Shown here: positions 1,119 to 41,584 of the stretch, one piece after another
Layout of the letters: every line of letters begins with the position of its first letter
How positions within the stretch are numbered: position 1 is the stretch's first letter
Assembly (NCBI GenBank): GCA_002862465.1
Contig: PKDD01000003.1
Location: 1-41,584 of the forward strand
DNA length: 41,584 nt
Reading direction: 5' to 3'
DNA from: Haliea sp.
GTDB lineage: Bacteria; Pseudomonadota; Gammaproteobacteria; Pseudomonadales; Halieaceae
Made by a program: the position numbers and the translations under genes
The notes under the pieces: generated by a model
What the model saw: only the letters and a program-made list of their open reading frames with translations
Database searches by the model: none
What the model was told of the DNA's origin: nothing

Positions 1119-1140
1119 TGTCTTGCCTTCCTTAGTTCAT

Positions 1141-2267: not shown

Positions 2268-2273
2268 TACTGA

Positions 2274-2852: not shown

Positions 2853-2861
2853 AATGAGGGG

Positions 2862-5336
<2,475 letters not shown>

Positions 5337-5539
5337 TCAGGTAGGAAATCGGCCGAATGACAGCTTCATATGAGGCTGCTGCGAGCGAACATTAGGCCGA
5401 GAGTTTAGCAGTTATTACGGTTGGCTGCGAAGGGGCTACTTACAAGTTTCTATTTAGGGTTGCCAGGCTGAACGCGGCGAGCTTGGCCGTTCGAAAAAAT
5501 CATGGGAATAATGACGCTGCCATTAGGCGCAAAATCCTG

Positions 5540-7057: not shown

Positions 7058-7084
7058 GGATTGTTATCGCTGTTTATTCAGTGA

Positions 7085-9437: not shown

Positions 9438-9500
9438 AGTATCCTGTCGACAGCCTAAGCAATGCAATTATCTGTAAGGATATACTGGAATTCGCGGGCG

Positions 9501-10832
9501 TCAACCATCGAATATCACTCCACGCAAAGAATTCGGGAGAGCATCGACAATTTCAACATTCACAAAGCGTCCGATCATTGACAGGTCTGCTGATGAAAAA
9601 TTCACTGCTCGGTTATTTTCAGTGCGGCCCTGAAGTTGCCCCGGATCCTTTTTAGATAGGCCTGTTACAAGGATACGTTGTGTCGTGCCAACCATGCGGC
9701 GACTAATTTCTGCAGCCTGCTGGAGAATTCGCGCTTGCAATATTTGCAGCCGCTGCTTCTTGATGTCTTCGGCAGTGTTGTCCGGGAGTTCTGCTGCGGG
9801 GGTGCCTGGACGTGCGCTATAAATAAAGCTAAATGAGTTATCAAATCCTATCGTCTCAATCAGTTTCATGGTGGCAGCAAAGTCGTCCTCGGTCTCACCA
9901 GGAAAACCAATAATAAAATCCGAAGAAATGCTGATATTGGGCCGGATGGTGCGCAGGCGGCGTATTTTTGATTTATATTCCAAAGCAGTATGACCGCGCT
10001 TCATGGCAGCCAAGATGCGGTCAGAGCCGCTTTGCACTGGCAGGTGTAGATGATCTACCAACTGCGGTATCTCCGCGTAGGCGTTGATCAGTGCGTCTGA
10101 AAACTCCACGGGGTGAGATGTTGTGTAACGGATGCGCTCTATGCCTTGGATGCGTGCGACGACATGCAGTAGTTCCGCAAAGTCAACAATCTCGCCTTCG
10201 TGATTAGCCCCGCGATAGGCGTTCACATTTTGCCCTAGCAGGTTAACTTCGTGGACCCCGCTAGCGGCTAAGTGAGCCACCTCTAAAATTATATCATCCA
10301 GTGGCCTAGAAACCTCTTCACCCCGGGTATAAGGTACGACACAAAAGGTGCAGTATTTGCTGCAACCCTCCATAACGGATACGAAGGCAGTGGGCCCGTC
10401 GACCTTGGGTTGAGGAAGGTTATCGAATTTCTCGATCTCCGGAAAACTGATATCCACAACCAGTGTGCCCTCTGAGCCGCGCTGTTCCAGCATGTCGGGC
10501 AGCCGATGCAGGGTTTGTGGGCCGAAGACTAAGTCCACGTAGGGTGCTCGGCGACCGATTTCTGCCCCTTCTTGGCTGGCGACGCAGCCGCCAACTCCAA
10601 TGATAAGATTGGGATTTTTTTGTTTCAGTTTCTTCCAGCGGCCCAACTGATGGAATACCTTCTCTTGAGCTTTTTCCCTTATAGAACAGGTATTTAACAG
10701 CAATACGTCGGCCTCTTCAGGATTTTCTGTGGAGATCAGGTGATGACTTTCGTGCAACAGATCACGCATACGAGCCGAATCGTATTCATTCATCTGACAA
10801 CCATGGGTTTTGATGTAGAGTTTCTTGCTCAC
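9501..10832 (-). CDS. miaB: tRNA-2-methylthio-N6-dimethylallyladenosine synthase MiaB
   Basis: Radical SAM methylthiotransferase that converts i6A37 to ms2i6A37 in tRNAs reading UNN codons. The N-terminal UPF0004 domain carries the auxiliary cluster ligands Cys12, Cys49 and Cys83 ([30 protein letters not shown]). The radical SAM cluster is C157-x3-C161-x2-C164 in [22 protein letters not shown] domain ends the protein (near [24 protein letters not shown]). All catalytic cysteines are present and length 443 is normal. The start is GTG ([12 protein letters not shown]). Divergent from the DUF1820 gene across a 313-bp spacer. Confidence 0.98.
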
Positions 10833-11145
10833 TAGAATTTTGCAGCGGGCCAGCCGCCGATATCGCTCTGCGTAGAATTACGGGATAGAAATTATACAGA
10901 GTTGATGGCGGCAAACCTAGTGCGCTTGGTTGCCGTTTTTACACCATTTATGGGTCTTTAGACCTGACATTGCTCCATATCTGCTGAGGGGTGGCAGATG
11001 TCATGCTGGACAGAGAGGATATACTAGTGCTGAAATTGGTATTCTCGGGACGCAGTGGTAATATCATCTATCTTTAACTGCACGGTCCCTGCGCGGGCCT
11101 GTTTGCAGACACGCAATTTTATCCCAAGTGCTACACGAGACGACA
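10833..11145. other. Spacer between divergent miaB and DUF1820 genes, with a hairpin-T run
   Basis: No gene is seen in these 313 bp, which should hold both promoters. On the plus strand, 10909-10935 can fold into a hairpin (CGGC-AACC pairing with GGTTGCCG, one bulged A, 10-nt loop) directly followed by five T (10936-10940). That is the shape of an intrinsic terminator, but no plus-strand gene lies upstream of it. Possible readings are a short leader or sRNA, or chance. Confidence 0.4.
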
Positions 11146-28463: not shown

Positions 28464-30491
28464 TCACTCGGGTGGCGTATACCAGATCGGAGAGCTCCAC
28501 GCGCGCTCTTGAATAACTTTTTGGTGTTCTGGCGCACAGCAGTTCTCCATTCCTTCGGGAATACTTTGTGGATTGTCGCAGCGCACGCCGGCATTGGCAC
28601 AGATGCGTTGACTCCAGCGACAGCTGGGGTTTTCTAGCACACGGGTATAATAAAAAGCTGGCGCTTCAGGATTAAAGTCATTGTCCTGCCACACATTGCA
28701 GAGTTGACTGTGTCCACTTCCTGTCGGTTCGCAGGTATTAATATTGACAGTGGCAGTGTTATCACTCCCCGCAACGCCGATTACTTTTTCATGCAGTTCT
28801 CCATCCTCATGCCAACCCTTAATCAGCTGAATGCGCTGCAATGGGCTGCCCGGATATTCAGGCGTGCCATTGTCCATACTGGCTGAGACTATGAATCGGG
28901 GAGAGGTGTCAGCGGAAGCGACGGCTGGTAGGTCCCCACCCATAGGCACGCCACCGGCATAACCCTGTGTGACCATGTCATCCAACGCACAGAGGTTTTC
29001 TGGATAATTCCACCCGCCAAAGAAACGTAATATGGGTCGTGTGCCGCTGGTGGCATATGCCTCACGCCGCTGCATGGCTGCAAATAATGCATCGCGGCTG
29101 TTTTCTTCGGCATACAATACGGCAAGGCCTCCAGGGCCATATTCAAGCTCATCGGGGAGTCCAACCGGGACGCCATCTCGGGCGCCCATGCCAGCGCCGC
29201 CATGGCCTGGATGATTTTTCTCCATGGTAAGTCCCGGCGCGGCGATATGTGTATCAGTACTTGAGATCAGACCAAATTTAAAGCCATTGACCCCCAACTC
29301 ATCCTGCTGTTGTAGACCTTTTTTTAAGGCATAGCGCATGAAATTAGTCTCAGAGGGTGGCGTTGTAACTGGAATTATGTCCTCACCGAGCACGGGACTC
29401 AGAAACTCCAGCATAGCGAACCGAGTGTGGCCGGTATTTTTGCCGCCAAAGCTGTCATAGCCCATCTTTTCGAAATTGCAGTACTCGTCTTCCGACCAGA
29501 CTGGTAGGCGGCTGTCACACTCCGAAGATCCCTTGTGCTGCATCACTTCAAAAAGAGTATTCCAGCGCGCCCTGCGGGCTGCTTCCTGAGCGGTCACTGG
29601 GTCTGCTGGAATGTCGGCGTTGGTAATGCGAGCAGTTTCAAACATCAGTCCCGCCGAGATATTTGAATTGTGCGGTATTACTACGGCGTCACAGCCGGGC
29701 TTTCCTAAAATACATTCTTCATCTAAATAATCCCACAGCTGTACCTGCGACGGCGTCTCTATCCAACTCATGGCTCGATTGGGGACGTGTTCGTTGCGAA
29801 AAACGACATTATGATGGAGGTTCTGCCCGGTGCCGCCACTAGCTGTCCACTCATAGCCTACAAAGCTGGTAAAGCTGCAATCGCTGCTTCGATCATAGGC
29901 ATCCTCGGTATCCCTTTGGATGTCCTGCCAGGTGTTGGCGGCCTGCGCAAAGCAAATATCGTTGTCGTCGCCACATAGACCCCAGCGCGTCTTGTAGGCC
30001 ATTCCCAGTGTGGCGAAGGTTAAAAAGGAAAGTCTGGGCACGTGTCTATGTGCTATGCATACGGGGTGCCAGTATCCGGGCAGGCCCTCTGTCGAGCACA
30101 TGCGCATTTCACCCATGAATTCCGAGTGATCGGTGACAGCGGTGAAATCCAGAGGGCGATCTAGCTGAATAGTGCGTGTAGGTTCGCCATTCTCATCATA
30201 GGGTTGAATACCCAGTGGGTAACCTTGCGCAAACCGGTAAGCGTCAGCCGGTGTATTGCGTGTGTCTTGGCTACTCGCATCAAAAGACCACGCCGTGTGG
30301 ACGTGCATATCGCCAAAATGCGGTCGACGCTCAACGGCGTAACTAGCACACGGTTCGCGCTCTTCTGTTCGAGAGAACGGAGGAGGCACGGTGCTAATTT
30401 CTGCGACTTCGATTGGACTTGGTATTGCTGCCAGAGTGGGTGTTGCAAGGCTTAGGATTGCAGCAAGCCGCAGAGTTCGATGTAGCTCCAT
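28464..30491 (-). CDS. Secreted DUF3604 protein, likely PHP-type metallohydrolase (copy 1)
   Basis: A 675-residue DUF3604 protein with a Sec signal peptide (cut near residue 21-22). Ordered metal-ligand motifs suggest a PHP/amidohydrolase-like site: HFGDMHVHTAWSFDA (His63, His65), DFTAVTDHSEF, FVGYEWT, VVIPHNSNIS, HKGSSE and ISSTDTHIAAPG. The conserved tail is YYTRVLENPSC ... AWSSPIW. It also has many Cys in the periplasmic part, possibly in disulfides. The family has no established function; hydrolysis of an ester bond is inference. The ATG at 30491 has AGGAG upstream. It lies 62 bp downstream of the hydrolase gene, and its product shares every motif with copy 2 (38527). Confidence 0.9.
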   Translation of the reverse strand: MELHRTLRLAAILSLATPTLAAIPSPIEVAEISTVPPPFSRTEEREPCASYAVERRPHFGDMHVHTAWSFDASSQDTRNTPADAYRFAQGYPLGIQPYDENGEPTRTIQLDRPLDFTAVTDHSEFMGEMRMCSTEGLPGYWHPVCIAHRHVPRLSFLTFATLGMAYKTRWGLCGDDNDICFAQAANTWQDIQRDTEDAYDRSSDCSFTSFVGYEWTASGGTGQNLHHNVVFRNEHVPNRAMSWIETPSQVQLWDYLDEECILGKPGCDAVVIPHNSNISAGLMFETARITNADIPADPVTAQEAARRARWNTLFEVMQHKGSSECDSRLPVWSEDEYCNFEKMGYDSFGGKNTGHTRFAMLEFLSPVLGEDIIPVTTPPSETNFMRYALKKGLQQQDELGVNGFKFGLISSTDTHIAAPGLTMEKNHPGHGGAGMGARDGVPVGLPDELEYGPGGLAVLYAEENSRDALFAAMQRREAYATSGTRPILRFFGGWNYPENLCALDDMVTQGYAGGVPMGGDLPAVASADTSPRFIVSASMDNGTPEYPGSPLQRIQLIKGWHEDGELHEKVIGVAGSDNTATVNINTCEPTGSGHSQLCNVWQDNDFNPEAPAFYYTRVLENPSCRWSQRICANAGVRCDNPQSIPEGMENCCAPEHQKVIQERAWSSPIWYTPPE

Positions 30492-30553
30492 TTATGCAGG
30501 CTCCTAGTAGTTTTGGTGAAAAATAATTTTCTGCACTGTATCCAAATGCACAG

Positions 30554-31732
30554 TCATACGTCCGTCAAGCCTTGTGTCCGTAACCATGAGGTGCAGGCGT
30601 GTTCTGCTTGGCGGAGCTGTTCACGTTGGCCGATGTAATAATGGGTGGCGCCAGCGATTTCAACGTAGACCTTGTTGTCATTAGCAACCGCCTCAAACAA
30701 CCTTTTTGCGTGGCTTGGTGTGCAGGCATCATCGGCAGCGTTATTGATGATGAGTGTCGGCAGATTCATGTTAGCGGCATCAGTAATGCCATTAGCATTG
30801 GATTCATCATAACTCCATTGAGACAGCCAACTGCGCAATGTAGTGAATCGCGCTAGACCGATTGGACTGTTGTTCACGACTTTTGGATCACCCAGAAAAC
30901 AGGTGTTAGGCTTACGCCCGTTCGGGTCGATCGTATTGTCTAGCCACACGGGTGCGGCCATTGTGCCGTGAACGATAAACGCAAATTCTTCATTCGGTTT
31001 GTCCTGTGCTCGTAACGCGGCCAACTTTATCTTAACCCAGGCCGTGATGCGTTGGTTGCGTGCAATTTGGGCAGCCTGATAACGCTTTTGAAATTCATCA
31101 CTGTAAGGAGGCTGATTGCGGTTTTCCGGATTATATAGGTCGAGCTCAGGGTCTCGGATGTTGGGATTAGACTCATCCAGAATAGAGGCGTCCATCCATT
31201 CGGTCAATGTTAGTGCGCGGCTGACGTGAGCGGCTAGCAGCATTATGCCGTCGGCAGGAATCAAGTTCGCTTCCTGTAAATTCGGGGGATCACCCGCAGG
31301 AGTGCACGTCACCGTGGCGTGCTCGGCTTGGCGCTGATAAAATAACGCCAGTGAGCCGCCGCCACTCCAGCCACCAAGAATCACTTTATCGTAGCCCAGT
31401 CGTTCCTTTGCATCCCTGATGCATTCGCTCATATCCAGTACGACTTTCTCCATGATGAGTGCGGTATCGTTATTGGGGTAGCGGCTTTGACAATAAATAA
31501 TATGGTGCCCTGCTTTGGCAAGCGCCATCGGCAGGGGTAGATACTCGCCGCCGCCAACCGGATGCATAAAAATGATAACGGTTTTTGATTGCGACGCCGT
31601 TGGTCGCATAAGGTGTGAACGCAGCACAACATGATCAACGCCCCCGTAGACATCCTTAAAACCTGTGGGCTTTTCGTTGAAAAGCAGTAGATAAGGTGTC
31701 CTATCGATACCCTTGTCAGCATCTACAAACAT
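30554..31732 (-). CDS. Cytoplasmic alpha/beta hydrolase
   Basis: A 392-residue alpha/beta hydrolase without a signal peptide. The oxyanion-hole region is FMHPVGGGEYLPLP (near residue 55), and the nucleophile elbow is GGWSGGGS (Ser123). The acid is probably in NNAADDACTPSHAK and the His in IAGATHYYIGQ. A long helical lid (YNPENRNQPPYSDEFQKRYQAAQIARNQRITAWVK) lies between. It likely cleaves an ester, lactone or C-C bond of a pathway intermediate; the substrate is unknown. It overlaps the VOC gene stop by one base (TAATG), so both are translated from one message. The ribosome site is inside the VOC gene. Confidence 0.88.
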   Translation of the reverse strand: MFVDADKGIDRTPYLLLFNEKPTGFKDVYGGVDHVVLRSHLMRPTASQSKTVIIFMHPVGGGEYLPLPMALAKAGHHIIYCQSRYPNNDTALIMEKVVLDMSECIRDAKERLGYDKVILGGWSGGGSLALFYQRQAEHATVTCTPAGDPPNLQEANLIPADGIMLLAAHVSRALTLTEWMDASILDESNPNIRDPELDLYNPENRNQPPYSDEFQKRYQAAQIARNQRITAWVKIKLAALRAQDKPNEEFAFIVHGTMAAPVWLDNTIDPNGRKPNTCFLGDPKVVNNSPIGLARFTTLRSWLSQWSYDESNANGITDAANMNLPTLIINNAADDACTPSHAKRLFEAVANDNKVYVEIAGATHYYIGQREQLRQAEHACTSWLRTQGLTDV

Positions 31733-32370
31733 TAGGTTTTCTTTGATCGTGGTTGTTGCGTATGGATGTTTGACGCGACTAATCCGCTGCAGCGCGAATC
31801 AATCGCATCAGCGCCAAAGATTTCAATTTTCTGCGCTCGTGTGCGCGCGCTCCACTCGATAATTTGCTGCTGCGCATTGCTTCTTTCTTCTAGTAGTACT
31901 GCATCGTGCTTACTAGTTTTGTGCGTAATCTCTAAAGCGTAGCCGTTCGGATCGAAGAAGTAGACGGATTCAACAAAATCGTGGTCGATAGGGCCAAATA
32001 TGAAATCTCCTGCCGCACTGATTTTGTCTTTCCATGCAAGCATGGAATCAGCACTGTCGGTTTCAAATGCGATATGAATATCAAAACTGTCCTTTAGCTC
32101 AAAGTGGTCTGGTTTAGCGTTGCCGGGTTCGTCAAAAAATGCAATATAATTACCGTCCTCAAGCTCTAAAAAAAGATGCAAGAACGGACGTTTTTTTTCT
32201 GTACCTGGCGAGTTTTCGAGCGACAATGCCGCCGCTAGTGTGAGTCCAAGGATATCTTCATAGAACCAGCGCGTTTGTTCGGCATCGCGGCAGCGCAACG
32301 CTAGATGGTGAATACCCCCCAGTGGTCTAAGCGCAGCGGTCTTGTTAATTAGCGTTGAGGATTTTTGCAT
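31732..32370 (-). CDS. VOC-superfamily protein (glyoxalase/extradiol dioxygenase-like)
   Basis: A 212-residue vicinal-oxygen-chelate protein built from two beta-alpha-beta-beta-beta units. Candidate metal ligands are His in GGIHHLALRC (residues 21-22), Glu/Asp in NYIAFFDE, His99 in FDIHIAFE and Glu in GYALEITH. This His/Glu pattern resembles lyase- or dioxygenase-type VOC enzymes. The first 17 residues and the final ~45 (from HDAVLLEERSNAQQQ) extend beyond the usual fold and are rich in charged residues. It is the first gene of the hydrolase/DUF3604/pqi run, divergent from sulfatase 1, with an operator candidate in the shared spacer. Function in a ring-cleavage or aldehyde step is inference. 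Confidence 0.87.
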   Translation of the reverse strand: MQKSSTLINKTAALRPLGGIHHLALRCRDAEQTRWFYEDILGLTLAAALSLENSPGTEKKRPFLHLFLELEDGNYIAFFDEPGNAKPDHFELKDSFDIHIAFETDSADSMLAWKDKISAAGDFIFGPIDHDFVESVYFFDPNGYALEITHKTSKHDAVLLEERSNAQQQIIEWSARTRAQKIEIFGADAIDSRCSGLVASNIHTQQPRSKKT

Positions 32371-32478
32371 TCGTCTAGTCTTCTTTAATTATATTTCTGA
32401 CTAAAGGCTAATGGTAGCAGCGCAGGCGCTGAAAAGCACTCACGGCTAAGGGCACAATATCTTGTCCTGCTATGACGG

Positions 32479-32494
32479 ACTAAACTTGTTTAGT
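32479..32494. promoter_or_regulatory. Palindromic operator candidate (ACTAAAC-TT-GTTTAGT)
   Basis: A perfect 7-bp inverted repeat with a 2-nt centre, located 109 bp before the VOC start and 215 bp before the sulfatase 1 start. Its size and symmetry suit a TetR-type or similar dimeric regulator that could control both directions. No regulator is encoded in the window. Confidence 0.5.
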
Positions 32495-32553
32495 ATGATG
32501 TCTATTCAGCAGCAGCCAGTTGGCTACTTCGAAGGAATGATAGGATCAGTGCC

Positions 32554-32685
32554 ATGGTAGTCTATGACATGGGGTTCTCAAAAGCTTATATTCATGGTGC
32601 CTATAGACGAACGGGACGGCAGACTTTGACCACGCCTGTCACTGCCAAACAGATTCTCTTTGTGGATGAAGCTGGGGATCACTAA
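32554..32685 (+). CDS. Possible 43-residue peptide upstream of sulfatase 1
   Basis: ATG GTA GTC TAT to TAA gives MVVYDMGFSKAYIHGAYRRT, then GRQTLTTPVTAKQILFVDEA and GDH. It stops 23 bp before the sulfatase 1 ATG on the same strand. The ribosome site (TAGGATCAGTGCC) is weak and there is no recognised family. It could be a leader peptide, a gene remnant or chance. Confidence 0.2.
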   Translation: MVVYDMGFSKAYIHGAYRRTGRQTLTTPVTAKQILFVDEAGDH

Positions 32686-32708
32686 GCAAAAATAATGGGG
32701 ACGTGACT

Positions 32709-34283
32709 ATGTTTAAGTTCAACGGCAACCAAACAGGCCTGCTGATTGCGGCAATGTTATCGCTGATTTTTAGTACGGGTGCAGTTGCCCTTGGGCGGCC
32801 AAATATTGTGTTCATTTTCTCAGACGACCACGCCATTGGTGCCGTCAGTGCCTATGGTGACAGCATAGTGCAGACTCCGAATATTGACCGTATTGCAGCG
32901 GGCGGCATCCGTTTTGATCGCGCGTATGTCGGGAATGCGATCTGCGGTCCCAGTCGAGCAACGTTACTCACCGGTCTGCATAGTCATGCGAACGGATTCT
33001 ACAGTAATGAATGGTCTGCTCCCTTTGACGGCGAGCAGCAAACCCTATCTAGTCTGTTGCAGGAAGCAGGTTATCAAACTGCTGTCATCGGTAAATGGCA
33101 CTTGTACAGTGATCCAGTGGGCTTTGATTATTGGGAGGTCATCGACAATGTGTTCGAGCAGGGCACTTATTATAATCCATCCTTTAGAGGCCCGAATGGT
33201 GTCGTAGAGACGACAGGTTATGTCGCGGACTTAGTGACGGATAAGACGCTTGCTTGGCTGGAACAGGCAAAAGAGGAAGATAGGCCGTTTTTTCTGCTAT
33301 ACAACCATAAGACTCCTCACCGCGATTGGCTGCCGGGTCCACAGGAACTGCGCGAATGGGATGAGGGCTATAGAGTCAAGGAGCCGGAATCTCTGTTCCG
33401 AAATGTGGATGAATTCAACGAGGCCCGACGACAATCTCGTATGCGAATAGCCGATTATATGACTGATCAAGATGTCAAATTGAGTATGGGTAATACGCTG
33501 ACACCGGAGCAAGAGGCGCTATGGAAGAGTGCATTTGCAGAGGGCAATCGACAGTATCGAGCATTAGATTTGACAGTACAGGATGACGTGCGTTGGAAGT
33601 ATCAGCGTTATGCGAAAACTTATGCGGCCTCAGTGAAAAGCATGGACCGGCAGATTGGTCGGCTGCTGGATTACCTAGAGGCCAATAGCTTAATGGAGGA
33701 CACTATCGTCCTCTACAGTTCAGACCAAGGGTTTTTCCTCGGTGAAAATGGCTGGTTCGACAAGCGCTGGATGGACGAGGTGTCTTCTCAGGTGCCGCTA
33801 TTGATAGAGTGGCGTGGGCATATCAAGCCAGGTACAGCGTCGGATGCTCTGGTACAGAATATCGATTTTGCGCCCACGCTTCTTGCCGCTGCCGGCGTAA
33901 AACCCAAAAAACCGATGCATGGGGTAAGCCTGTTGCCGCTGTTTGAGGAAGAGGCTGCACCTTGGAGCAGAGATTTATACTATCACTTTTATGAAAACCC
34001 AGGCTTTCACGGGGTCGCGCGTCACTACGGGGTGCGCACCGAGCGCTATAAACTGGTTTATTACTACCAGAATGATGAGTGGGAATTGTTTGATTTGGTG
34101 ACTGATCCACAAGATCAGGTGAATCTATATGGCAAGCAGGGGTATGCCGCTCTCACCGACGACCTGCGGCAGCGCTTGCAAGCTTTGCGTGTTGAATATC
34201 GCGTGCCGGACACAGACCCCGAGGTGCCGTGGTATCACGGGCCGTTGATAAGGGGAATCGAAAAGTTGATGATGTGGTTATGA
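32709..34283 (+). CDS. Secreted type I sulfatase (sulfatase 1)
   Basis: A formylglycine-dependent sulfatase of 524 residues with a signal peptide (through VALG near residue 29). Key residues are the metal pair Asp39-Asp40 (FIFSDDHAIG), Cys79 in CGPSRATLLTG (converted to formylglycine by a maturase), GKWHL, HKTPHRDW and the second metal site YSSDQGFFLGENGW with FDKRWMDEVSSQVPLLIEW. The C-terminal WELFDLVTDPQDQVNLYG matches S1 sulfatases. It hydrolyses sulfate esters in the periplasm; substrate unknown (choline-, aryl- or carbohydrate sulfates are all possible). ATG at 32709 is preferred: GGGGA lies 7 bases upstream, whereas the GTG at 32703 is less well placed. Convergent with the TonB receptor gene, 35 bp apart. 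Confidence 0.95.
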   Translation: MFKFNGNQTGLLIAAMLSLIFSTGAVALGRPNIVFIFSDDHAIGAVSAYGDSIVQTPNIDRIAAGGIRFDRAYVGNAICGPSRATLLTGLHSHANGFYSNEWSAPFDGEQQTLSSLLQEAGYQTAVIGKWHLYSDPVGFDYWEVIDNVFEQGTYYNPSFRGPNGVVETTGYVADLVTDKTLAWLEQAKEEDRPFFLLYNHKTPHRDWLPGPQELREWDEGYRVKEPESLFRNVDEFNEARRQSRMRIADYMTDQDVKLSMGNTLTPEQEALWKSAFAEGNRQYRALDLTVQDDVRWKYQRYAKTYAASVKSMDRQIGRLLDYLEANSLMEDTIVLYSSDQGFFLGENGWFDKRWMDEVSSQVPLLIEWRGHIKPGTASDALVQNIDFAPTLLAAAGVKPKKPMHGVSLLPLFEEEAAPWSRDLYYHFYENPGFHGVARHYGVRTERYKLVYYYQNDEWELFDLVTDPQDQVNLYGKQGYAALTDDLRQRLQALRVEYRVPDTDPEVPWYHGPLIRGIEKLMMWL

Positions 34284-34318
34284 GTTCTACCCCATGACGA
34301 CGAAACTTGATCGATCCG

Positions 34319-36658
34319 CTACCATCGATAACGCGCTTCAATACCGAAAGTTCTCTCAGCGTAACGTGGCACCTGATGACCATAGCCATTTGGTGTGAAG
34401 TTGCTGGGCAAAGCGGTAATATTGTTTAAAAACCACTCGTTGAAGACATTCTTGGTGAATAGAGTCACCGTATAATGGTCAGAATGATCTAATGCAGCCA
34501 AGGATAGGTCGAGAACCCCGAAGCTGTCTTGGGTCTCATAAATATCCTGGCTAATGGAAAACTGAACTTTGTCCTGAAAGCGGTAATTTCCGTTTATTTC
34601 AAGGTCAAAAGGCATGGATGATAATGGGACTAAATAACTCGCGGCCATTGTAAACTTCCATTCTGGCGTAGCCGGTAAGACGCCACCACGTAAATCCTGT
34701 GTTGCCGGTTGATCGCCACAGGTGGTTTGGTTGTTATATCCAACCCCCCGAAAGGACTGGCCAAATGAGCAGCCTGCGCCGTCAAATTTTTTGATCTGGG
34801 CGTCCACATAGGCCGCGCCCCCGGACAATGTCAGATTTTCCATGGGCAGAGCGGTGAAGTCTATCTCAACACCCTTGGTCTCTACTTGGCCGACGTTTGC
34901 AAGGATAAAACTGAATGTACCATCAGGAAATCCATCGTCGTTGTCATCAACTGAATTGCCGTTCTCGTCTAGATTAGGCGTAAATTCCGAGGCGGTAGCT
35001 TGAAAGTCATCGAAAGTGGTATGGAATATAGCCACGTTCATTATGAGACGATTTTCAAACCAAGTGGACTTGAGACCAAGTTCAAACGCCTTACTCGTTT
35101 CAGGGTCGACCGGATCAGTATTTGCCGGTGTAGAACCGAAGCCAACATTGAAGGCAGGCCCTTTATAGCCCTGCGAATAGCTAGCGTATGTCATTGCGTC
35201 ATCAGTGGCGTTCCATTCCAACGCGATTTTACCGGTCCACTCACTTTCATTGGTATCCCGCTCGAAGTAGGGCTGGGAATTGGCTCCCAATGTGGCGCCA
35301 ACGCGTTCAAAATTAAACTTAAGATCATCGTGCGTCCAGCGCAAGCCAGTGACCAGTCGCCAGCGTTCACTGAGGCGCGTGACGGCTTCACCGAAGGCAG
35401 CATAGTTAAGTGATTTAACCGAGAAATCAGCTATTGCTTCGGTTCGATCGGTACCGCTGAGATCGAAGGATCGGTCAAATTTACGGTCAACGGTCTGATC
35501 GAAATAATACAGGCCCGCTACATAGGATATAAGTTGATCGGCGGGGGAGGTCAGGCGCAGTTCTTGCGAGAACTGATCTTGCTTAGATTTTCCGCCTTGG
35601 ATGAATCCCAATACATCCACTGGCAGTTGGTCATTGTCGCCGCGCGCGTTTTGCGACCACTCTCGGTAAGCACTGATGGAGGTAAGAGTATGAGAGCCTA
35701 GGTCCCAATTTACCTCTAACGAGTGTCCAGAGGCATTTATGTCTCTTGTAAGATCGCCATTAAGATTTACCTTTTTGTTCTTATCGCTAGGCACTACGGG
35801 GGCCAGTTGATCTAAAATCTCATCAACCCGCTCCTGATTATTCGGTGGTTGCGCAGGGTAGGGATCTAAGGACTGTAAAGCAATGTTACAACAGGTGGAG
35901 TTTCTATCGCTGTAGTCGCTGATCCATTTGAATTGTAATTGTTCTGTGGCATTCCACAGCAATTTCCCTCGCAGACCCCAGTCATCGGAATCGTTGACTT
36001 TTTTACCGTCATAGACGTTTTCAAGCCAGCCCTCGTCGCGGTTGTAGTAACCGGTTAAGCGGCCCGCAAGGTTGTCTGTGAGGCCATCTGAAACCGTAAA
36101 ACTGGACCGGTACTCGTTATCTTCAGTGGCATAACCGCGCACTACGGCTTCAAATTCTTCTGTTGGATCTCGCGTAATGAATTGCACAACGCCCGCAGAT
36201 GCATTTTTACCAAATAGCGTACCCTGGGGACCGCGCAAGACTTCTACCCGCTGCATGTCCACCAACTGGGTGAATGCCATTCCCGTTTGACCCATGACCA
36301 CACCATCCAACATCGTTGAAATGCTAGGTTCGATTGCCGAACTGAAAGACACCGTGCCTATACCGCGAATACTGAAAGAGGTTTGTCTGGGGTTGGCACC
36401 TTTGTTGAGGTTCAATGAGGGTACCAACTGAATCAAGTCTTCGGAACTGCCTATCAGCGCATTAGTGAGATCTTTGCCGGACAACGCCGTAACAGCAATG
36501 GGAACGTCTTGTAAGTTTGATGAGCGTTTAGTGGCGGTGACGATAACTTCTTCGAGTTGCAGTTTCTGGTTGTCTTGCGCCCTTGCGCCTAGATGCATGA
36601 TAGATGAGAGAGCGGCCACGACCAATGAAGCTATTGTTGTCGATTTTTTGATGTTCAT
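34319..36658 (-). CDS. TonB-dependent outer-membrane receptor
   Basis: A 779-residue outer-membrane transporter. Signal peptide MNIKKSTTIASLVVAALSSIM..., then a TonB box (LEEVIVTATKR), a plug domain (DVPIAVTALSGKDL, PRQTSFSIRGIGTVSF, MQRVEVLRGPQGTLFGKNASAGVVQFITRDP) and a 22-strand-type barrel ending in Tyr-Arg-Trp as the typical C-terminal aromatic signature. There is no N-terminal signalling domain, so it is a simple importer rather than a FecA-type sensor. In this class, common in marine bacteria, substrates include sugars, aromatics and steroids. It lies between the sulfatases, so the likely cargo is the sulfated substrate. GGAGA precedes the ATG. Confidence 0.95.
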   Translation of the reverse strand: MNIKKSTTIASLVVAALSSIMHLGARAQDNQKLQLEEVIVTATKRSSNLQDVPIAVTALSGKDLTNALIGSSEDLIQLVPSLNLNKGANPRQTSFSIRGIGTVSFSSAIEPSISTMLDGVVMGQTGMAFTQLVDMQRVEVLRGPQGTLFGKNASAGVVQFITRDPTEEFEAVVRGYATEDNEYRSSFTVSDGLTDNLAGRLTGYYNRDEGWLENVYDGKKVNDSDDWGLRGKLLWNATEQLQFKWISDYSDRNSTCCNIALQSLDPYPAQPPNNQERVDEILDQLAPVVPSDKNKKVNLNGDLTRDINASGHSLEVNWDLGSHTLTSISAYREWSQNARGDNDQLPVDVLGFIQGGKSKQDQFSQELRLTSPADQLISYVAGLYYFDQTVDRKFDRSFDLSGTDRTEAIADFSVKSLNYAAFGEAVTRLSERWRLVTGLRWTHDDLKFNFERVGATLGANSQPYFERDTNESEWTGKIALEWNATDDAMTYASYSQGYKGPAFNVGFGSTPANTDPVDPETSKAFELGLKSTWFENRLIMNVAIFHTTFDDFQATASEFTPNLDENGNSVDDNDDGFPDGTFSFILANVGQVETKGVEIDFTALPMENLTLSGGAAYVDAQIKKFDGAGCSFGQSFRGVGYNNQTTCGDQPATQDLRGGVLPATPEWKFTMAASYLVPLSSMPFDLEINGNYRFQDKVQFSISQDIYETQDSFGVLDLSLAALDHSDHYTVTLFTKNVFNEWFLNNITALPSNFTPNGYGHQVPRYAERTFGIEARYRW

Positions 36659-37035
36659 TGTCGGCTTCTCCAGAGATTACTTTTTGTTGATATTTTAGAC
36701 TAGGATAAGCTAATTATTGAAGTCCTTGAATCTTAAAATTCATTAACATATCCAACGTTTTCCCGAGATATATAATGTTGTCTACACTTCTGATATAACA
36801 TCGAGCGTAAATTGAGTTTTTGAGCATCTATGGTCAAAAGTATGGTTTTTAAATTAAGCTTACATAATACTCCAAGCGCCTATCAAATTTGTCATCATGT
36901 CGGCCGTCAACATTTGTGTTGGATACCAGAGCGGCTTAGTGCTCCGCGCATCTGCCTTCTGGAACAAGTGAATCAAATCATGCAGCGGTTTGCAATTGCG
37001 CTGAATCCATACTGCGGTAAAGATGGCGCAGAGTC
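36659..37035. other. Divergent spacer between TonB receptor and sulfatase 2
   Basis: A 377-bp AT-rich stretch that must carry both promoters. I see no strong dyad. A 69-codon frame (36830-37039) on the plus strand reads up to the sulfatase 2 start with a GTGA overlap, but the protein is Cys/His-scattered, has no clear ribosome site and looks non-coding. Confidence 0.45.
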
Positions 37036-38511
37036 GTGACGACTCATTGGACCAGATATTGCCAGTTTATCGATATCGTAACTTGTCGTATAAGCCAATA
37101 CTTACTGCACAGGCACTTCCTCTTCTACGTTATTGCGATGGTTGCCATTTTGCTTTCCATAGCCGCAAGCAGTGTCGCCCATGCTAGTGAAAGGCCCCCT
37201 AACATTATTCTAATCCTCAGTGATGATATTGGTGCAGAAACCGTTGGTGCTTTCGGGGGTGAGTCTTATCAAACACCGCGTTTAGATGCTATGGCCGCTG
37301 AGGGTATGCGCTTTGATTACGCTCATGCCCAGCCTTTGTGCACGCCATCAAGGGTGAAAATCATGACAGGGCAGTATAATTTTCGCAATTACAATCACTT
37401 TGGTTACCTTGATCCCACGCAGACTACGTTTGCAAACATACTTAAGAGTGGCGGTTACGACACTGTGGTCGCTGGTAAGTGGCAGTTGTATAACAACCTC
37501 TTCGAAAATTTGCAGGGCGCGCTGCCATTAAGTGCGGGTTTTGATGAATATCTTGTCTGGCAATTGAAGAGAGCAGAAAGGGGTCCGCGTTACTGGGCGC
37601 CGCGTCTTAATCAGAATGGGCAGTTACGGCAGTATGATCCCTCTGTATTCGGCCCTGACGTACTCAATGAGTATGTACTGGAATATATCGACACGCATAG
37701 AGAATCTCCGTTCTTCATTTATTACCCAATGGTACTAGTGCACGATCCTTGGGTCACAACGCCAGATATGCTCGATGAGTCGGCTAGCGACCAACAGAAG
37801 TTCGCTGCAATGATGACTTACATGGACAAACTTGTCGGCAAGGTAATTGATAAGGTAACCGAATCGGGACTTGCAGATAGAACTATCATTTTCTATATCG
37901 GTGATAATGGCACAGGACGCGACATCGTCAGCCTGCAGCACAGTATAGAGGTGCGCGGAGGTAAGGGCGCTACGATTGATGCAGGGTCGCGAGTGCCATT
38001 CATCGTGTGGGGGCCCAGTTTGGTGAAAAGTGGTGCTAGTAGCGACAGCTTGGTGAGTCTCAATGATGTTTTTCCGACGCTGGCCGCACTGGCGGGCTTG
38101 CCATTACCTGAGGACTATCCTGGAGACGGCGACAGCCTACTGCCCGTGCTTTCGGGTCAGCGCGAGTTGCAGCGCACTGAGCTCTTCGTACACTATGAGC
38201 CTCGTTGGCCCTCCGCTGTTCCGGCCCGTTATGCGTTTGATCGACGTTGGAAGCTGTATCAGGACGGCAACTTCTTCGATATGCAATCCGACCCACGGGA
38301 GTCCTCGCCGATTGATGTCGATCATTTGGATGCAGAGGCTGCCTCGGCTTATCGGTCACTTCACAGGTTGATCGAGAGCATGCCGGGTAAACTGCAATCG
38401 ACACATCGCTGGATTCCCGTACAATTTTATTATGTATTCTTTGGCTGTGTTTTTTCCTTGCTAGCATTGGTCTGGCTTGCGCGGCGATTTGTAGGCTGGT
38501 TGCGAACTTAA
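37036..38511 (+). CDS. Membrane-anchored type I sulfatase (sulfatase 2)
   Basis: A sulfatase of 491 residues. After a long n-region comes a hydrophobic signal segment (FLFYVIAMVAILLSIAASSVAHA, residues 28-50), then metal pair Asp63-Asp64 (LILSDDIGAETVG), formylglycine Cys102 in CTPSRVKIMTG, AGKWQLYNN, and the second site FYIGDNGTGRD with GGKGATIDAGSRVPFIVWGP. Unusually, the C-terminus carries a transmembrane helix followed by Arg residues (FYYVFFGCVFSLLALVWLARRFVGW), so the enzyme is tethered to the inner membrane with the catalytic domain in the periplasm. The start GTG at 37036 is uncertain; ATG at 37138 would leave no basic n-region. DUF3604 copy 2 follows a few bases after the stop, suggesting one transcript. 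Confidence 0.92.
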   Translation: MTTHWTRYCQFIDIVTCRISQYLLHRHFLFYVIAMVAILLSIAASSVAHASERPPNIILILSDDIGAETVGAFGGESYQTPRLDAMAAEGMRFDYAHAQPLCTPSRVKIMTGQYNFRNYNHFGYLDPTQTTFANILKSGGYDTVVAGKWQLYNNLFENLQGALPLSAGFDEYLVWQLKRAERGPRYWAPRLNQNGQLRQYDPSVFGPDVLNEYVLEYIDTHRESPFFIYYPMVLVHDPWVTTPDMLDESASDQQKFAAMMTYMDKLVGKVIDKVTESGLADRTIIFYIGDNGTGRDIVSLQHSIEVRGGKGATIDAGSRVPFIVWGPSLVKSGASSDSLVSLNDVFPTLAALAGLPLPEDYPGDGDSLLPVLSGQRELQRTELFVHYEPRWPSAVPARYAFDRRWKLYQDGNFFDMQSDPRESSPIDVDHLDAEAASAYRSLHRLIESMPGKLQSTHRWIPVQFYYVFFGCVFSLLALVWLARRFVGWLRT

Positions 38512-38526
38512 TTTGTGAGCGCTGTG

Positions 38527-40671
38527 ATGCTAAAAAAAATTCTGCTGGGTCTATTTTTGCTTCTGTGCACTGGGCTTGTGTGGTTTTATAGTATTGGGCA
38601 AGGTTGGTTAGGGAGTGACTGGCAGGCGGCGCCAGTGACTGGCGGGCCACGTCTACAGCATTCGTCTGTGAGTGAGCAGTCCGATAATATTTTTGCCGAA
38701 CAACAGATGAGGACAGAGCGCTATGATACACCTCAGGTACTGTTTGGGGACCTTCACAGTCACACAAATTATTCTATCGATGCTTATGTGTTTAACACTA
38801 AAGCGGTGAAGGGTGGCGGGATTGTTACGCCGGCGGACGCTTGTGATTTTGCGCGCTATTGTTCTGCGCTGGATTTTTGGAGTGTTAATGATCATGCGGA
38901 GGGTCTTACGCCGCGCGCTTGGGCTGACACGTTAAAATCGATACGTGAGTGCAATCACGCCGCTGGCAACCCAATGAATCCCGATGTTGTTTCCTTTGTC
39001 GGCTGGGAGTGGTCTAACGGCGAGCGGGACGATGCACCCAGTCACTACGGACACAAGAACGTCATCTTTCGAGCATGGGAGGAGGGGCAGACTCCGACGC
39101 GGCCCATTGCGGCTGCGCCAAGCTATGTGTTGGGAAAAGTACCCTCTGTACTCTTGGGGTTGTTTAGCCTAACGGATGGCGTTCAGGCTGCTTCAGATCT
39201 GGGACGTTTTATACAGGAATCTAATCAAACGCCTGTCTGCCCTGAGGGGGTGCCAGCAAACGAGCTACCGGCAGACTGTCGAGAAGTTGCACTGACGCCG
39301 CGCGATCTTTATCGGAAGTTAGATGAATGGGGGTTCGATAGTATGGTTATCCCTCATGGTCTTGCTTGGGGTACGACGAATCCCTCCACGGCTGATTTTC
39401 GTGACCAGATGGATCAGTACGAGCGACGCTATGAAAACCTGTTGGAGATATACTCGGGTCATGGCAGTTCAGAAGTGTTCGAAGATTTTCGACGCTTTGA
39501 CCCAAGCAGTGCGAGTGATGATATCTGCCCGGACTCGACTGCCAATTTTACGCCCTGCTGCCAGCGGGCGGGAGTGCTAGCGCAAGCAAGCTGTGATGAT
39601 GCGGAATCTCCGGAGTGTGTGCAAAAAGTTGAGCAGGCCCGCGCAGACTTTGTGAAAAAGTCAGGTCAAAAAGGACGCACACTTTTTCCGCAGGCCACAC
39701 TGGATGACTGGGCAGGTTGCGGACAACTGCAAAATACCTTCCAGCCCGCCTCTATGTATGTGCCACGCATGTCCGCGCAGTATAGTCTTGCACTGGGTTT
39801 TGATGAGGATGGCTCGCCCAAGCGTGCGCGGTTTGGTCTTGTTGGCTCCAGCGACGGACATCAGGGACGTCCCGGCAGCAGTTACAAGGAAACAGATCGG
39901 TTGCTTTACACCGACAGTAAAAATTTGGGTCGAGAAAGCGGTTTGACGGATTTTTATAGGCCGGATAAGGAGTCAGGCAGTTTTTTTTACACTGGAGGCC
40001 TGGTGGCTGCACATACGCAGGGCCGCAATCGCGATGCTATTTGGGATGCGCTAAGCAATCGCAATGTTTACGCAACCTCAGGCGACCGAATGTTGGTCTG
40101 GTTTGACTTGCTCAATGGTCCCGATGGCACAGTACCAATGGGCAGTGAGGTGATGCTAAGCGACACGCCGCGCTTTCGTGTCCGCGCGCTGGGCGCTTTC
40201 GAACAGCAGCCTGGCTGTCCTGATTATGCCGTCGCCGCGCTCGGCGCCCATCGCGTGCAAACGTTATGCGGCGGAGAATGCTATTGGCCGGGCGGTGACC
40301 GCCGCAAAGTAATTTCACGTATAGAAATCGTTCGTATTAGGCCACAGGTTAGGCCAAATGAATCTATTGCGCCGCTGATAGAGGATCCTTGGCTAGTCAA
40401 AGAGTGCGCCGCTGATGGCAGTGGCTGTGTGATGGAGTTTGAAGACGCTGAATATGGCGCCGGCGCGCGAAATGCACTTTACTATGCGCGGATTATACAA
40501 GAACCAGAACCGTTAATTGGCGGCGATCCTTTTGGCTGCGAATATGATGCGCAGGGCGTTTGTGTCAAGCGCAATTATTGTATTGGAGAGTCTGCTAGGC
40601 CTGACGACAATTGTCTGTCGGTCGCCGCACCGCGGGCTTGGACATCACCCATTTTTTTGGAGTATTACTGA
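38527..40671 (+). CDS. Membrane-anchored DUF3604 protein, likely PHP-type metallohydrolase (copy 2)
   Basis: A 714-residue DUF3604 protein with an N-terminal hydrophobic helix (KKILLGLFLLLCTGLVWFY) that anchors or exports it. The metal-ligand motifs match copy 1 in order: VLFGDLHSHTNYSIDAY, LDFWSVNDHAEG, FVGWEWS, MVIPHGLAWG, GHGSSEVF and LVGSSDGHQGRPGS, then NVYATSGDRM, YYARIIQEPEP and AWTSPIF at the C-terminus. A DUF3604-family hydrolase role is inference. The frame also allows a GTG start at 38515, 3 bp after the sulfatase 2 stop; the ATG at 38527 gives a conventional n-region (MLKK). Its TGA overlaps the sulfatase 3 ATG by one base (TGATG). Sandwiched between two sulfatases, it probably shares their substrate. 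Confidence 0.9.
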   Translation: MLKKILLGLFLLLCTGLVWFYSIGQGWLGSDWQAAPVTGGPRLQHSSVSEQSDNIFAEQQMRTERYDTPQVLFGDLHSHTNYSIDAYVFNTKAVKGGGIVTPADACDFARYCSALDFWSVNDHAEGLTPRAWADTLKSIRECNHAAGNPMNPDVVSFVGWEWSNGERDDAPSHYGHKNVIFRAWEEGQTPTRPIAAAPSYVLGKVPSVLLGLFSLTDGVQAASDLGRFIQESNQTPVCPEGVPANELPADCREVALTPRDLYRKLDEWGFDSMVIPHGLAWGTTNPSTADFRDQMDQYERRYENLLEIYSGHGSSEVFEDFRRFDPSSASDDICPDSTANFTPCCQRAGVLAQASCDDAESPECVQKVEQARADFVKKSGQKGRTLFPQATLDDWAGCGQLQNTFQPASMYVPRMSAQYSLALGFDEDGSPKRARFGLVGSSDGHQGRPGSSYKETDRLLYTDSKNLGRESGLTDFYRPDKESGSFFYTGGLVAAHTQGRNRDAIWDALSNRNVYATSGDRMLVWFDLLNGPDGTVPMGSEVMLSDTPRFRVRALGAFEQQPGCPDYAVAALGAHRVQTLCGGECYWPGGDRRKVISRIEIVRIRPQVRPNESIAPLIEDPWLVKECAADGSGCVMEFEDAEYGAGARNALYYARIIQEPEPLIGGDPFGCEYDAQGVCVKRNYCIGESARPDDNCLSVAAPRAWTSPIFLEYY

Positions 40672-41584
40672 TGCGAGTCGGCAAGTGGTTGGCCTGCACG
40701 GCTGTCTTTCTGCTGGCTCCCATCGCCAACACACAGACGCCATTGAGGCCGAATATCCTTTTGCTGATGGCAGAGGACATGAGTGCCAGGGTAGGAGCGT
40801 TTGGGGACAGCGTGGCGGTCACGCCAAACCTCGATGCGCTCGCCGCTCAGGGTGTGCGCTATACAAATACGTTTGCCACAGCAGGGGTTTGTGCCCCCAG
40901 TCGCGCCGCGCACATACTCGGCATGCACCAGATTTCCACTGGCACACAGCACATGCGCAGTGGCAGTCGACCGGAGGGCAGTTACTACTCAGTGCCGCCA
41001 GAAAATGCCAAGGCCTATCCGGAATTATTGCGCTCGGCAGGTTATTACACCTACACCGATAATAAATTGGATTATCAGTTCAGTGGCTCTCTTGCAGGCA
41101 GCGGGCCAACCACTATTTGGGACCTTGAAGGCGGCGTGGTATCGGACTGGACTAAGCGGGAACAGGGGCAACCTTTTTTCGGCTTTATCAGCTTTCCGGT
41201 CACCCATGAAAGTGGCGTCTTTTTACCTTTGGGTAATATGCCCGAAAGTATCATGCATTTTACGCTGCAAGTGATGCGCTGGTATATGCAGGATCAGCCC
41301 ATTCCCAAGACGATAAAACCTCAGGATATCGTGGTGCCGCCATACTACCCCGACACAAAGACAGTGCGCACTGATATGGCGCGGCACTACGACAATATTG
41401 CCACTATGGACGCTGAAGTTGGTGTTATTCTCGGACAATTGCAGACAGCTGGTCTGACCGATTCTACGATAGTGATTTGGACAACGGACCACGGCGACGG
41501 ATTGCCGCGCGGCAAGCGGGAGTTATTTGATTCAGGGATCAAGGTGCCGATGATCATCCGTTGGCCAGAGGCCTTCCGTCCTGA
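40671..41584 (+). CDS. Sulfatase 3, 3' end outside the window
   Basis: The first 304 residues of a type I sulfatase, open to the window edge. A signal peptide (MRVGKWLACTAVFLLAPIANTQ) precedes the metal pair Glu35-Asp36 (LLLMAEDMSARVGAFGD, with Glu in place of the first Asp, as seen in one sulfatase subgroup), formylglycine Cys74 in VCAPSRAAHILGMHQ, and WTTDHGDGLPRGKRELFDSGIKVPMIIRWP for the second metal site. Start ATG at 40671 shares one base with the DUF3604 stop. The AEDMS motif and HQISTGTQHMR resemble heparan-type N- or O-sulfatases, but the substrate is unproven. It is absent from any stop-to-stop listing because no stop is reached. Confidence 0.93.
   Translation, partial: MRVGKWLACTAVFLLAPIANTQTPLRPNILLLMAEDMSARVGAFGDSVAVTPNLDALAAQGVRYTNTFATAGVCAPSRAAHILGMHQISTGTQHMRSGSRPEGSYYSVPPENAKAYPELLRSAGYYTYTDNKLDYQFSGSLAGSGPTTIWDLEGGVVSDWTKREQGQPFFGFISFPVTHESGVFLPLGNMPESIMHFTLQVMRWYMQDQPIPKTIKPQDIVVPPYYPDTKTVRTDMARHYDNIATMDAEVGVILGQLQTAGLTDSTIVIWTTDHGDGLPRGKRELFDSGIKVPMIIRWPEAFRP

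Follow-up and report, generated by a model that had tools for sequence, protein, structure and literature searches.

Several sulfatases beside glycosidases are found in the lambda-carrageenan locus of a Pseudoalteromonad (PMC12549532), which belongs to the gammaproteobacterial sulfated-glycan loci. For the PHP fold, Table 1 of PMC3666897 lists the residues H, H, D/H, H, E, H, C/H, D/N and H, in this order, as the three-metal consensus, and exonuclease activity is noted in the same source for the PHP domains of some polymerases. Among the open PMC papers searched, DUF3604 appears in a single one, purely as an annotation, and PF12228 in none; neither a function nor activity evidence for any DUF3604 was found there, in agreement with a sequence-only reading made earlier of the DNA described below. 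Yet the family is present in 136 of 140 marine Halieaceae genomes, often in several copies, i.e. it is expanded in Halieaceae.

The window analysed is a 41,584-nt stretch of Haliea sp. (GCA_002862465.1, contig PKDD01000003.1), and the locus occupies its positions 28464-41584. The three sulfatases, two DUF3604 proteins and TonB receptor claimed by the earlier reading were verified by ORF calls and Pfam, which also gave an alpha/beta hydrolase and a VOC protein:

28464-30491, minus strand: DUF3604 copy 1 (DUF1), classic type; Pfam PF12228, 507 bits (506.8)
30554-31732, minus strand: alpha/beta hydrolase (ABH); Pfam Hydrolase_4/Abhydrolase_1
31732-32370, minus strand: VOC/glyoxalase-fold protein; Pfam Glyoxalase, 61 bits
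32703-34283, plus strand: sulfatase 1 (SULF1); Pfam PF00884, 186 bits
34319-36658, minus strand: TonB-dependent receptor (TBDR); Pfam TonB_dep_Rec_b-barrel and Plug
36659-37035, no strand: space between the divergently oriented TBDR and SULF2 genes, probably holding promoters; from gene coordinates only
37036-38511, plus strand: sulfatase 2 (SULF2); Pfam PF00884, 159 bits
38515-40671, plus strand: DUF3604 copy 2 (DUF2, DUF3604-2), divergent clade; Pfam PF12228, 84 bits (84.2), match in pieces
40671-41584, running off the window end, plus strand: sulfatase 3 (SULF3), N-terminal part; Pfam PF00884, 107 bits

When the whole window was scanned with profiles in six frames, no additional sulfatase, receptor or DUF3604 of the kinds listed came up. 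ABH and VOC lie upstream of DUF3604-1 in one run and overlap each other by 1 bp. The operon-like spacing proposed for SULF2, DUF3604-2 and SULF3 was confirmed, the first two genes being separated by 3 bp and the last two overlapping by 1 bp; an alternative DUF3604-2 start at 38527, a methionine common to 15 of 18 aligned orthologues, would widen the gap to 15 bp. Contig C86 shares an exact 123-bp overlap with the window end and completes SULF3. It encodes a third DUF3604 (DUF3; PF12228, 557 bits), an SDR, a DUF7133/cytochrome c protein, a second TonB receptor and an AMP-dependent CoA ligase. All three DUF3604 proteins score above the PF12228 cut-off of 20.4 bits. The same gene arrangement recurs in related species. 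By a simple hydropathy scan, DUF1, SULF1, TBDR, SULF2 and DUF2 have an N-terminal hydrophobic stretch (SULF2 a C-terminal one in addition), and none was detected at the N-terminus of ABH and VOC; that of SULF3 stayed below the threshold and by eye resembles a signal peptide. The export of DUF3604 that had been claimed is thus predicted by hydropathy for DUF1 and DUF2.

All three sulfatases exceeded the PF00884 cut-off and carry C-x-P-S-R, the two marks of a formylglycine (type I) sulfatase used here, and the removal of sulfate esters by them is predicted from family and motif. The motifs are CGPSRATLLTG at 32943-32975 (SULF1), CTPSRVKIMTG at 37339-37371 (SULF2) and CAPSRAAHILG at 40890-40922 (SULF3); their presence had been noticed correctly, while the positions given for them (32709, 37036 and 40671) were gene starts. 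The closest solved structure to SULF1 is 5g2v, an N-acetylglucosamine-6-sulfatase (451 bits), and a full-length orthologue of SULF3 was closest to the S1_8 sulfatases 9bbd and 9bb9 (247 and 226 bits), so the nearest solved relatives of both carry carbohydrate-sulfatase names. SULF2 has remote solved relatives only (top 140.5 bits), a steryl-sulfatase among them. An FGE-type protein is encoded in the genome (contig C50; PF03781, 141.6 bits, a family that includes other proteins too).

Since its PF12228 match is weak and in pieces, DUF3604-2 was regarded as a divergent member of the family; a profile comparison with classic DUF3604 gave 100% probability. In the tree, from which 12 of the 80 loci (those below 9 kb) were omitted, it falls in a single clade of 17 rows (SH-aLRT 99), 14 of them sulfatase-linked. 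The three rows without sulfatase were L148 (on the same contig as L091), L156 and L160; the sulfatase of L155 lies at a distance of several genes. When GTDB loci were sorted by identity to DUF3604-2, a sulfatase was present at 14/17 loci of at least 57%, at 1/4 of 48-56% and at 5/59 of 40-47%. Orthologous loci were fetched from 17 places in other genomes and 16 of them were analysed; the 17th is a 3.3-kb contig on which sulfatase 3 adjoins the DUF3604-2 orthologue. At least one sulfatase orthologue occurred in 15 of the 16, the exception being L091. SULF3-type genes were present in 13, SULF1-type (at least 66% identity) in 13, SULF2-type (at least 55%) in 8 and TBDR (at least 45%) in 11; DUF1214 together with sulfotransferase was seen in 5, GMC oxidoreductases in 4, and a GH3 whose closest relatives are beta-glucosidases likewise in 4. 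The orthologue and GTDB counts are not independent because they come largely from the same genomes. A plasmid search for DUF3604-2 gave one weak partial match, annotated DUF3604, among 72,556 records.

The gene order differs between loci, e.g. GH3-TBDR-SULF3-SULF1-DUF2 in L098 and SULF2-DUF2-SULF3-DUF3 in Haliea sp., therefore the linkage of DUF3604-2 with sulfatases has been kept through rearrangement. ABH stays together with VOC and SULF1 in L086/L145 and L226. Conceivably, DUF3604-2 has another target and owes its place next to the sulfatases to the shared ancestry of one block: the linked loci belong mostly to one family with common ancestry, and L148, L156 and L160 are members of the clade without sulfatases. 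However, membership was kept while the order was rearranged, the spacing is operon-like, and the other DUF3604 genes of the same genomes show no linkage beyond chance; we consider such hitch-hiking very improbable.

The DUF3604-2 clade is strongly linked to sulfatases, unlike the DUF3604 family as a whole. Ordinary DUF3604 genes had a nearby sulfatase in 2/20 Halieaceae loci, compared with 0/20 loci at arbitrary round coordinates, and outside Halieaceae in 1/20 loci versus 0/20 controls; among nine other DUF3604 loci of this genome there was none (0/9). These counts were made on all six-frame ORFs, and several of the fetched stretches end at contig ends, so the absence of a sulfatase from them is weaker evidence. 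In a position test confined to contig C1 of six genomes, which excluded the fragmented own genome and missed two genes resembling DUF3604-2 on a different contig of G453, a sulfatase lay within 5 kb of DUF3604 in 3/56 cases (null 2.0, p 0.32) and within 10 kb in 7/56 (null 3.7, p 0.08). A general association of DUF3604 with sulfatases was rejected as a rule on the Halieaceae, outside, own-genome and genome-wide results. Thus the functional lead seen in the co-location held for one divergent clade, where neighbourhoods are strongly linked, and failed for the family, where enrichment is little or none.

No dominant partner family emerged from a Pfam tally of 124 pooled neighbours of classic DUF3604 against 124 controls. 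Of the original 137 neighbours and 139 controls, 13 and 15, respectively, had been removed by hand, and the tally is uninformative on receptors and sulfatases because four receptors and one sulfatase were among the 13 neighbours removed. A TonB receptor was near classic DUF3604 in 6/20 Halieaceae loci (controls 4/20) and near DUF3604 outside Halieaceae in 1/20 (controls 3/20), both by a home-made profile of limited reach; we claim no enrichment from these counts.

Two overlapping DUF3604 alignments share an invariant HHDHEHHDH series (48/48 and 36/36 sequences), which matches the consensus in Table 1 of PMC3666897 when mapped by order and residue type rather than by superposition. The nine candidate ligands are H63, H65, D71, H122, E214, H226, H274, D413 and H415 in DUF1 and H81, H83, D89, H127, E165, H180, H281, D447 and H449 in DUF2; they were hand-picked from the invariant columns, where every one of the six histidines was taken but, of the seven acidic residues, just three. 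With AF2 models of both proteins (pLDDT 83.2 for DUF1 and 84.6 for DUF2), the top PDB match in Foldseek was the PHP-like 3e38, whose two chains were the sole matches with E below 0.001, although the superposition was poor overall (TM 0.25-0.27 by query, rmsd 12-16 Å). Profile alignment (hhalign) with a PHP set gave 73% (DUF2-led) and 21% (DUF1-led) over about 45 columns, and with a CehA-type set 36% over 24 C-terminal columns. CehA/McbA-type matches were obtained for 7/8 DUF3604 proteins at E up to 10 and for 3/8 below 0.001; none of the eight reached the 80-bit cut-off of NF038032 (best 23.4, one without match). Single and profile searches of PDB sequences with DUF3604 found no credible relatives. 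From ligand pattern and models, DUF3604 looks like a PHP-fold hydrolase and is predicted to bind metals.

DUF3604-2 might itself be a further desulfating enzyme, a PHP-fold hydrolase of sulfate (or phosphate) esters. The tight sulfatase linkage of one clade and the complete three-metal signature would fit this, as would the exonuclease activity noted for PHP domains of some polymerases in PMC3666897. Most of the examined DUF3604-2 relatives, and classic DUF3604, are without a nearby sulfatase. To our knowledge no PHP sulfatase is known, and we regard the proposal as unlikely.

The reading we prefer, and hold with about equal belief and doubt, is that of a locus conserved in Gammaproteobacteria, chiefly Halieaceae, by which a sulfated molecule containing sugar (oligosaccharide or glycoside) is taken up and dismantled, with DUF3604-2 removing a non-sulfate substituent. 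Its observed part comprises gene content, operon spacing, recurrence in rearranged orders and the complete PHP-type ligand set of DUF3604. The TonB receptor would import the molecule into the periplasm, where SULF1-3, matured by the FGE-type protein, would strip sulfate esters at different positions, SULF1 perhaps at hexosamine 6-O-sulfate and SULF3 perhaps at 2-O-sulfate, judging by the closest solved relatives. DUF3604-2, presumably tethered to the inner membrane through an N-terminal helix, would act as a multi-metal PHP-fold hydrolase on an ester or phosphoester of the same molecule, as linkage, co-export and metal-ligand signature suggest. In some relatives the GH3 beta-glucosidase may then cut the glycosidic bond, and the freed parts would be finished in the cytoplasm, in Haliea sp. 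by ABH, VOC, SDR and CoA ligase. DUF3604 copies 1 and 3, a classic-type sister pair, probably perform related hydrolytic steps. The periplasmic pathway suggested earlier is therefore supported for this cluster by a clade linkage that survives changes of gene order, and the weak linkage of the family confines the functional lead to one clade.

The proteins scanned, a part of the neighbours, included no endo-glycanase, polysaccharide lyase or SusD, and GH3 was found neither in the window or contig C86 nor in 12 of the 16 orthologous loci (a relative with 39% identity is encoded elsewhere in the genome), so the word glycan rests mainly on sulfatase kinship. The substrate could instead be a sulfated small molecule (a steroid, terpenoid, aromatic or lipid sulfate), which DUF3604 proteins would help to break down as esterases or lactonases and from which GH3 would take off at most one sugar in some species. 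ABH and VOC adjoin DUF3604-1, the SDR, CoA ligase and DUF7133/cytochrome c protein lie on C86, GMC oxidoreductases accompany a quarter of the orthologous loci (4/16), and SULF2 has its remote steryl-sulfatase relative. The 124 classic-DUF3604 neighbours, from this and other genomes, included seven SDR and four thiolase matches, neither family being among the 25 shown for the controls; this contrast is weak because the controls had four acyl-CoA dehydrogenase matches. SULF1, however, is by far closest to GlcNAc-6-sulfatases (451 bits) and SULF3 to S1_8 (247 bits), and both recur with DUF3604-2, which leaves the small molecule a possible but rather doubtful substrate. The VOC, ABH, SDR, GMC, CoA-ligase and DUF7133/cytochrome neighbours would fit small aromatic, terpenoid or steroid molecules equally well, which counts against a glycan.

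More speculatively, the DUF3604 proteins may constitute a class of PHP-fold hydrolases not described before, exported and with three metals, whose radiation in Halieaceae gave rise to many paralogues with substrates of their own, the DUF3604-2 clade being dedicated to sulfated marine glycoconjugates and possibly cutting the sulfate or phosphate ester itself; we give this little credence, and if true it would mean a new fold for such desulfation. DUF3604 activity becomes directly testable through the cluster, which offers a single defined clade whose partners are known. The lead is corrected as well: sulfatase linkage is a guide for one DUF3604 clade and not for the whole family.

Compared with known systems, DUF1 and DUF3 match the whole PF12228 model, whereas DUF2, above the cut-off, and its relatives match in pieces only and make up a branch of their own (69 rows) in the tree. 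Like the PHP-fold metallohydrolases (3e38, BVU_3505; the PHP domains of DNA polymerases, PMC3666897; CehA/McbA, NF038032), DUF3604 has nine putative metal ligands in order, with 3e38 as best structural match and weak sequence matches; it differs from them in long insertions, an extra C-terminal beta-rich region and predicted export, and in sequence it is distant (23.4 of 80 bits on NF038032, no PDB sequence relative found). SULF1 and SULF3 are kin to 5g2v and 9bbd/9bb9, respectively, over most of their length and have the catalytic C-x-P-S-R in common, their substrate positions being suggested by this kinship and not by a SulfAtlas subfamily. Unlike a Bacteroidetes-type polysaccharide utilization locus, the locus has no SusC/SusD pair: SusD was not among the proteins scanned in the window and contig C86, and the window receptor scores 47.6 bits on the SusC model (cut-off 368). 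Of the elements that mark a sulfated glycan or glycoside utilization locus in the broad sense (TonB receptor, sulfatases and glycosidase in one run), it has the receptor and the sulfatases, and a glycosidase, GH3, accompanies them in 4 of the 16 orthologous loci. With the lambda-carrageenan locus (PMC12549532), it shares the several sulfatases and an S1_8-related type (SULF3). It differs in that no endo-hydrolase was among the proteins scanned and GH3 is confined to a minority of orthologous loci, the constant partner here being the PHP-like DUF3604.

The cluster at 28464-41584 lies on contig C27 of a 3.3-Mb genome, this contig being the window, and contains the following genes in this order:

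DUF3604-1, minus strand, classic-type DUF3604 (PF12228) protein
ABH, minus strand, alpha/beta hydrolase
VOC, minus strand, glyoxalase-fold protein
sulfatase 1, plus strand
receptor, minus strand, TonB-dependent receptor
sulfatase 2, plus strand
DUF3604-2, plus strand, divergent DUF3604 protein
sulfatase 3, plus strand, first part of the gene

The VOC, ABH and DUF3604-1 genes form a single run (1-bp overlap, then 62 bp), while the gap between sulfatase 2 and DUF3604-2 is 3 bp, and DUF3604-2 shares 1 bp with sulfatase 3. The gene inventory of the sequence-only reading was sound, but the positions it assigned to the C-x-P-S-R motifs mark gene starts; the motifs are located at 32943, 37339 and 40890. 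The last 123 bases of the window match exactly the first bases of another contig of the genome, C86, which carries at 840-10992 (L049):

the rest of sulfatase 3
DUF3604-3, classic type, 48% identical to DUF3604-1
SDR
DUF7133/cytochrome c protein
second TonB receptor
AMP-dependent CoA ligase

The order sulfatase 3, DUF3604-3, SDR, DUF7133 protein recurs in genomes G527 and G514 (L087, L090), and VOC, ABH and a DUF3604 adjoin sulfatase 1 also in G520 and G527 (L145, L226).

In a phylum sample of 398 genomes, 29 had DUF3604 (28 above the cut-off), against 136 of 140 Halieaceae genomes, the own genome being counted in both sets; the Halieaceae often have several copies, with at most 60 first-look candidates per genome, not all of which are genes. 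The own genome has 11 DUF3604 genes, some cut by contig ends, and one remnant. C81 and C60 each have a DUF3604 piece at one end; these were counted as two genes, since they are only 50% identical in their overlap. The remnant is a decayed copy consisting of frame-broken fragments with stop codons (C12:49321-49803, L054).

The co-location of DUF3604 with sulfatases, earlier put forward as a functional lead, turned out to be wrong as a general rule. No sulfatase was present near the other DUF3604 loci of the own genome (0/9 fetched stretches, one being the broken remnant and two having the gene at a contig end). Classic loci of other Halieaceae genomes had a sulfatase in 2/20 cases, against 0/20 loci at arbitrary round coordinates, and DUF3604 loci outside the family in 1/20, against 0/20 controls. 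On contig C1 of six genomes the counts were near the rotation null: a sulfatase lay within 5 kb of 3 of the 56 classic genes (null 2.0, p 0.32) and within 10 kb of 7 (null 3.7, p 0.08). Other neighbours were seen at classic loci. A PPIC-type isomerase gene is situated directly 3' of the DUF3604 gene in two of them (L115:10806-11690, L116:10878-12820), followed in L116 by HupE/UreJ_2; the 124 pooled neighbours of classic genes included three isomerase and three HupE/UreJ_2 matches, both missing from the 25 families shown for the controls. Two neighbouring CsgG-type genes are found immediately 3' of a further classic gene (L113:7032-8912).

The linkage did hold for the clade of DUF3604-2, which is tied to sulfatases. 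This protein is divergent (84 bits with Pfam PF12228, versus 507 for copy 1) and at the same time a true relative of classic DUF3604 (hhalign 100%). It has matches at E <=1e-30 in 30 of the 140 Halieaceae genomes, the own one included, and orthologues of at least about 57% identity in 17 genomes of the family besides its own. At least one sulfatase orthologue was present in 15 of the 16 orthologue loci inspected gene by gene (sulfatases 1 and 3 in 13 each, sulfatase 2 in 8; the receptor was there in 11). The single sulfatase-less locus, L091, has three DUF3604-2-like genes in the same orientation, all inside a 10-kb stretch (1438-11005). In a GTDB scan, in which 80 of 387 relatives were kept, a sulfatase accompanied 14/17 loci at >=57% identity, mostly the same genomes as in the family search plus three contigs from other genomes (two named Spongiibacteraceae), 1/4 at 48-56% and 5/59 at 40-47%. 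Many Myxococcota and some Binatota carry 40-49% identical DUF3604-2-like proteins (loci among L162-L223), mostly without nearby sulfatases. Fisher tests of the linkage gave p ~1e-8 and ~1e-5, which are overstated because of relatedness among the rows. A quick tree of 101 sequences required 12 changes of the sulfatase label versus 21 in shuffles (0/500 as low), and one clade (SH-aLRT 99, without bootstrap) had 14 of its 17 rows sulfatase-linked; elsewhere this applied to 5/52 other DUF3604-2-like and 4/32 classic rows, two of the latter being copies 1 and 3 of the own cluster. On the six C1 contigs, 3/8 DUF3604-2-like genes had a sulfatase within 5 kb (null 0.34, p 0.005).

That membership is kept despite rearrangement of the gene order argues most strongly for a substrate shared by the cluster proteins. 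The L098 run consists of GH3 (a beta-glucosidase-type glycosidase), receptor, sulfatase 3, sulfatase 1 and DUF3604-2; it includes two overlaps of 4 bp, and an AraC-type regulator is encoded divergently in front of it. The run of L100 consists of GH3, receptor, sulfatase 1, sulfatase 2, DUF3604-2, DUF1214 and a sulfotransferase. DUF1214 and Sulfotransfer_3 adjoin the operon in 5/16 loci (L095, L096, L097, L099, L100), an odd placing of a sulfate-adding enzyme beside sulfate-removing ones. The GH3, whose nearest relatives are beta-glucosidases, occurs in 4/16 DUF3604-2 orthologue loci, from which a sugar in the substrate is argued; no GH3 of this type was found in the window or on C86, and the one relative in the own genome, located elsewhere, is 39% identical.

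Sugar sulfates are also the probable substrate to which two of the sulfatases point by their nearest relatives. Sulfatase 1 is closest to an N-acetylglucosamine-6-sulfatase (5g2v, 451 bits), and a full-length orthologue of sulfatase 3 to S1_8B and S1_8A (247 and 226 bits). From their names we infer that the two S1_8 PDB entries are those of PMC12549532, a paper on lambda-carrageenan that assigns such enzymes as galactose-2-sulfatases, with the monosaccharide as substrate of S1_8A and oligosaccharides as substrates of S1_8B and S1_8C. All solved relatives of sulfatase 2 are remote. One match to the formylglycine-generating type of maturase (FGE) is present in the own genome.

Among 48 aligned DUF3604 proteins, classic and DUF3604-2-like, exactly six histidines and seven acidic residues are invariant. 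The six histidines and three of the acidic residues follow the order H,H,D,H,E,H,H,D,H in 48/48 sequences, and in 36/36 of a classic-led alignment sharing many rows with it. The three-metal consensus of PHP metallohydrolases, as given in PMC3666897, is H,H,D/H,H,E,H,C/H,D/N,H, matched here by order and residue type, not by superposition, with columns picked after their invariance had been seen. For the AlphaFold models of DUF3604-2 (pLDDT 84.6, pTM 0.88) and DUF3604-1 (pLDDT 83.2, pTM 0.87) only 3e38, a two-domain PHP-like protein, matched in the PDB with E <0.001 (by both of its chains), with poor overall superposition. CehA/McbA-type profiles matched 7/8 DUF3604 proteins (E <0.001 in 3/8), all far below the cut-off; hhalign against PHP proteins gave 73% and 21% over the H-x-H to D-H stretch, and no useful match against a CehA-type set. 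Taken together, the residue order, the 3e38 matches and the weak profile agreement make DUF3604 a probable metal hydrolase of the PHP fold, as predicted from sequence and models.

Most likely, the substrate would be taken up via the TonB receptor and desulfated step by step in the periplasm, where membrane-anchored DUF3604-2 would take off a further substituent; the GH3, where present, would cleave the glycoside, and the products would be finished in the cytoplasm. No endo-acting enzyme was found among the neighbourhood proteins scanned, a result that favours a small sulfated glycoside or oligosaccharide over a long polymer. The VOC, ABH, SDR, GMC and CoA-ligase neighbours would fit a sulfated steroid, terpenoid or aromatic instead, a substrate that we regard as plausible but less likely than the sugar sulfates to which sulfatases 1 and 3 point.

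For six Halieaceae strains, 87 sulfatases and putative polysaccharide loci are reported in a genome study (PMC10100682) in whose main text no word starts with DUF. Among the open PMC papers searched, DUF3604 has one mention, as an annotation in Chlamydia. The cluster is probably a sulfated-substrate utilization locus, of a known kind, built around an uncharacterised PHP-like enzyme.
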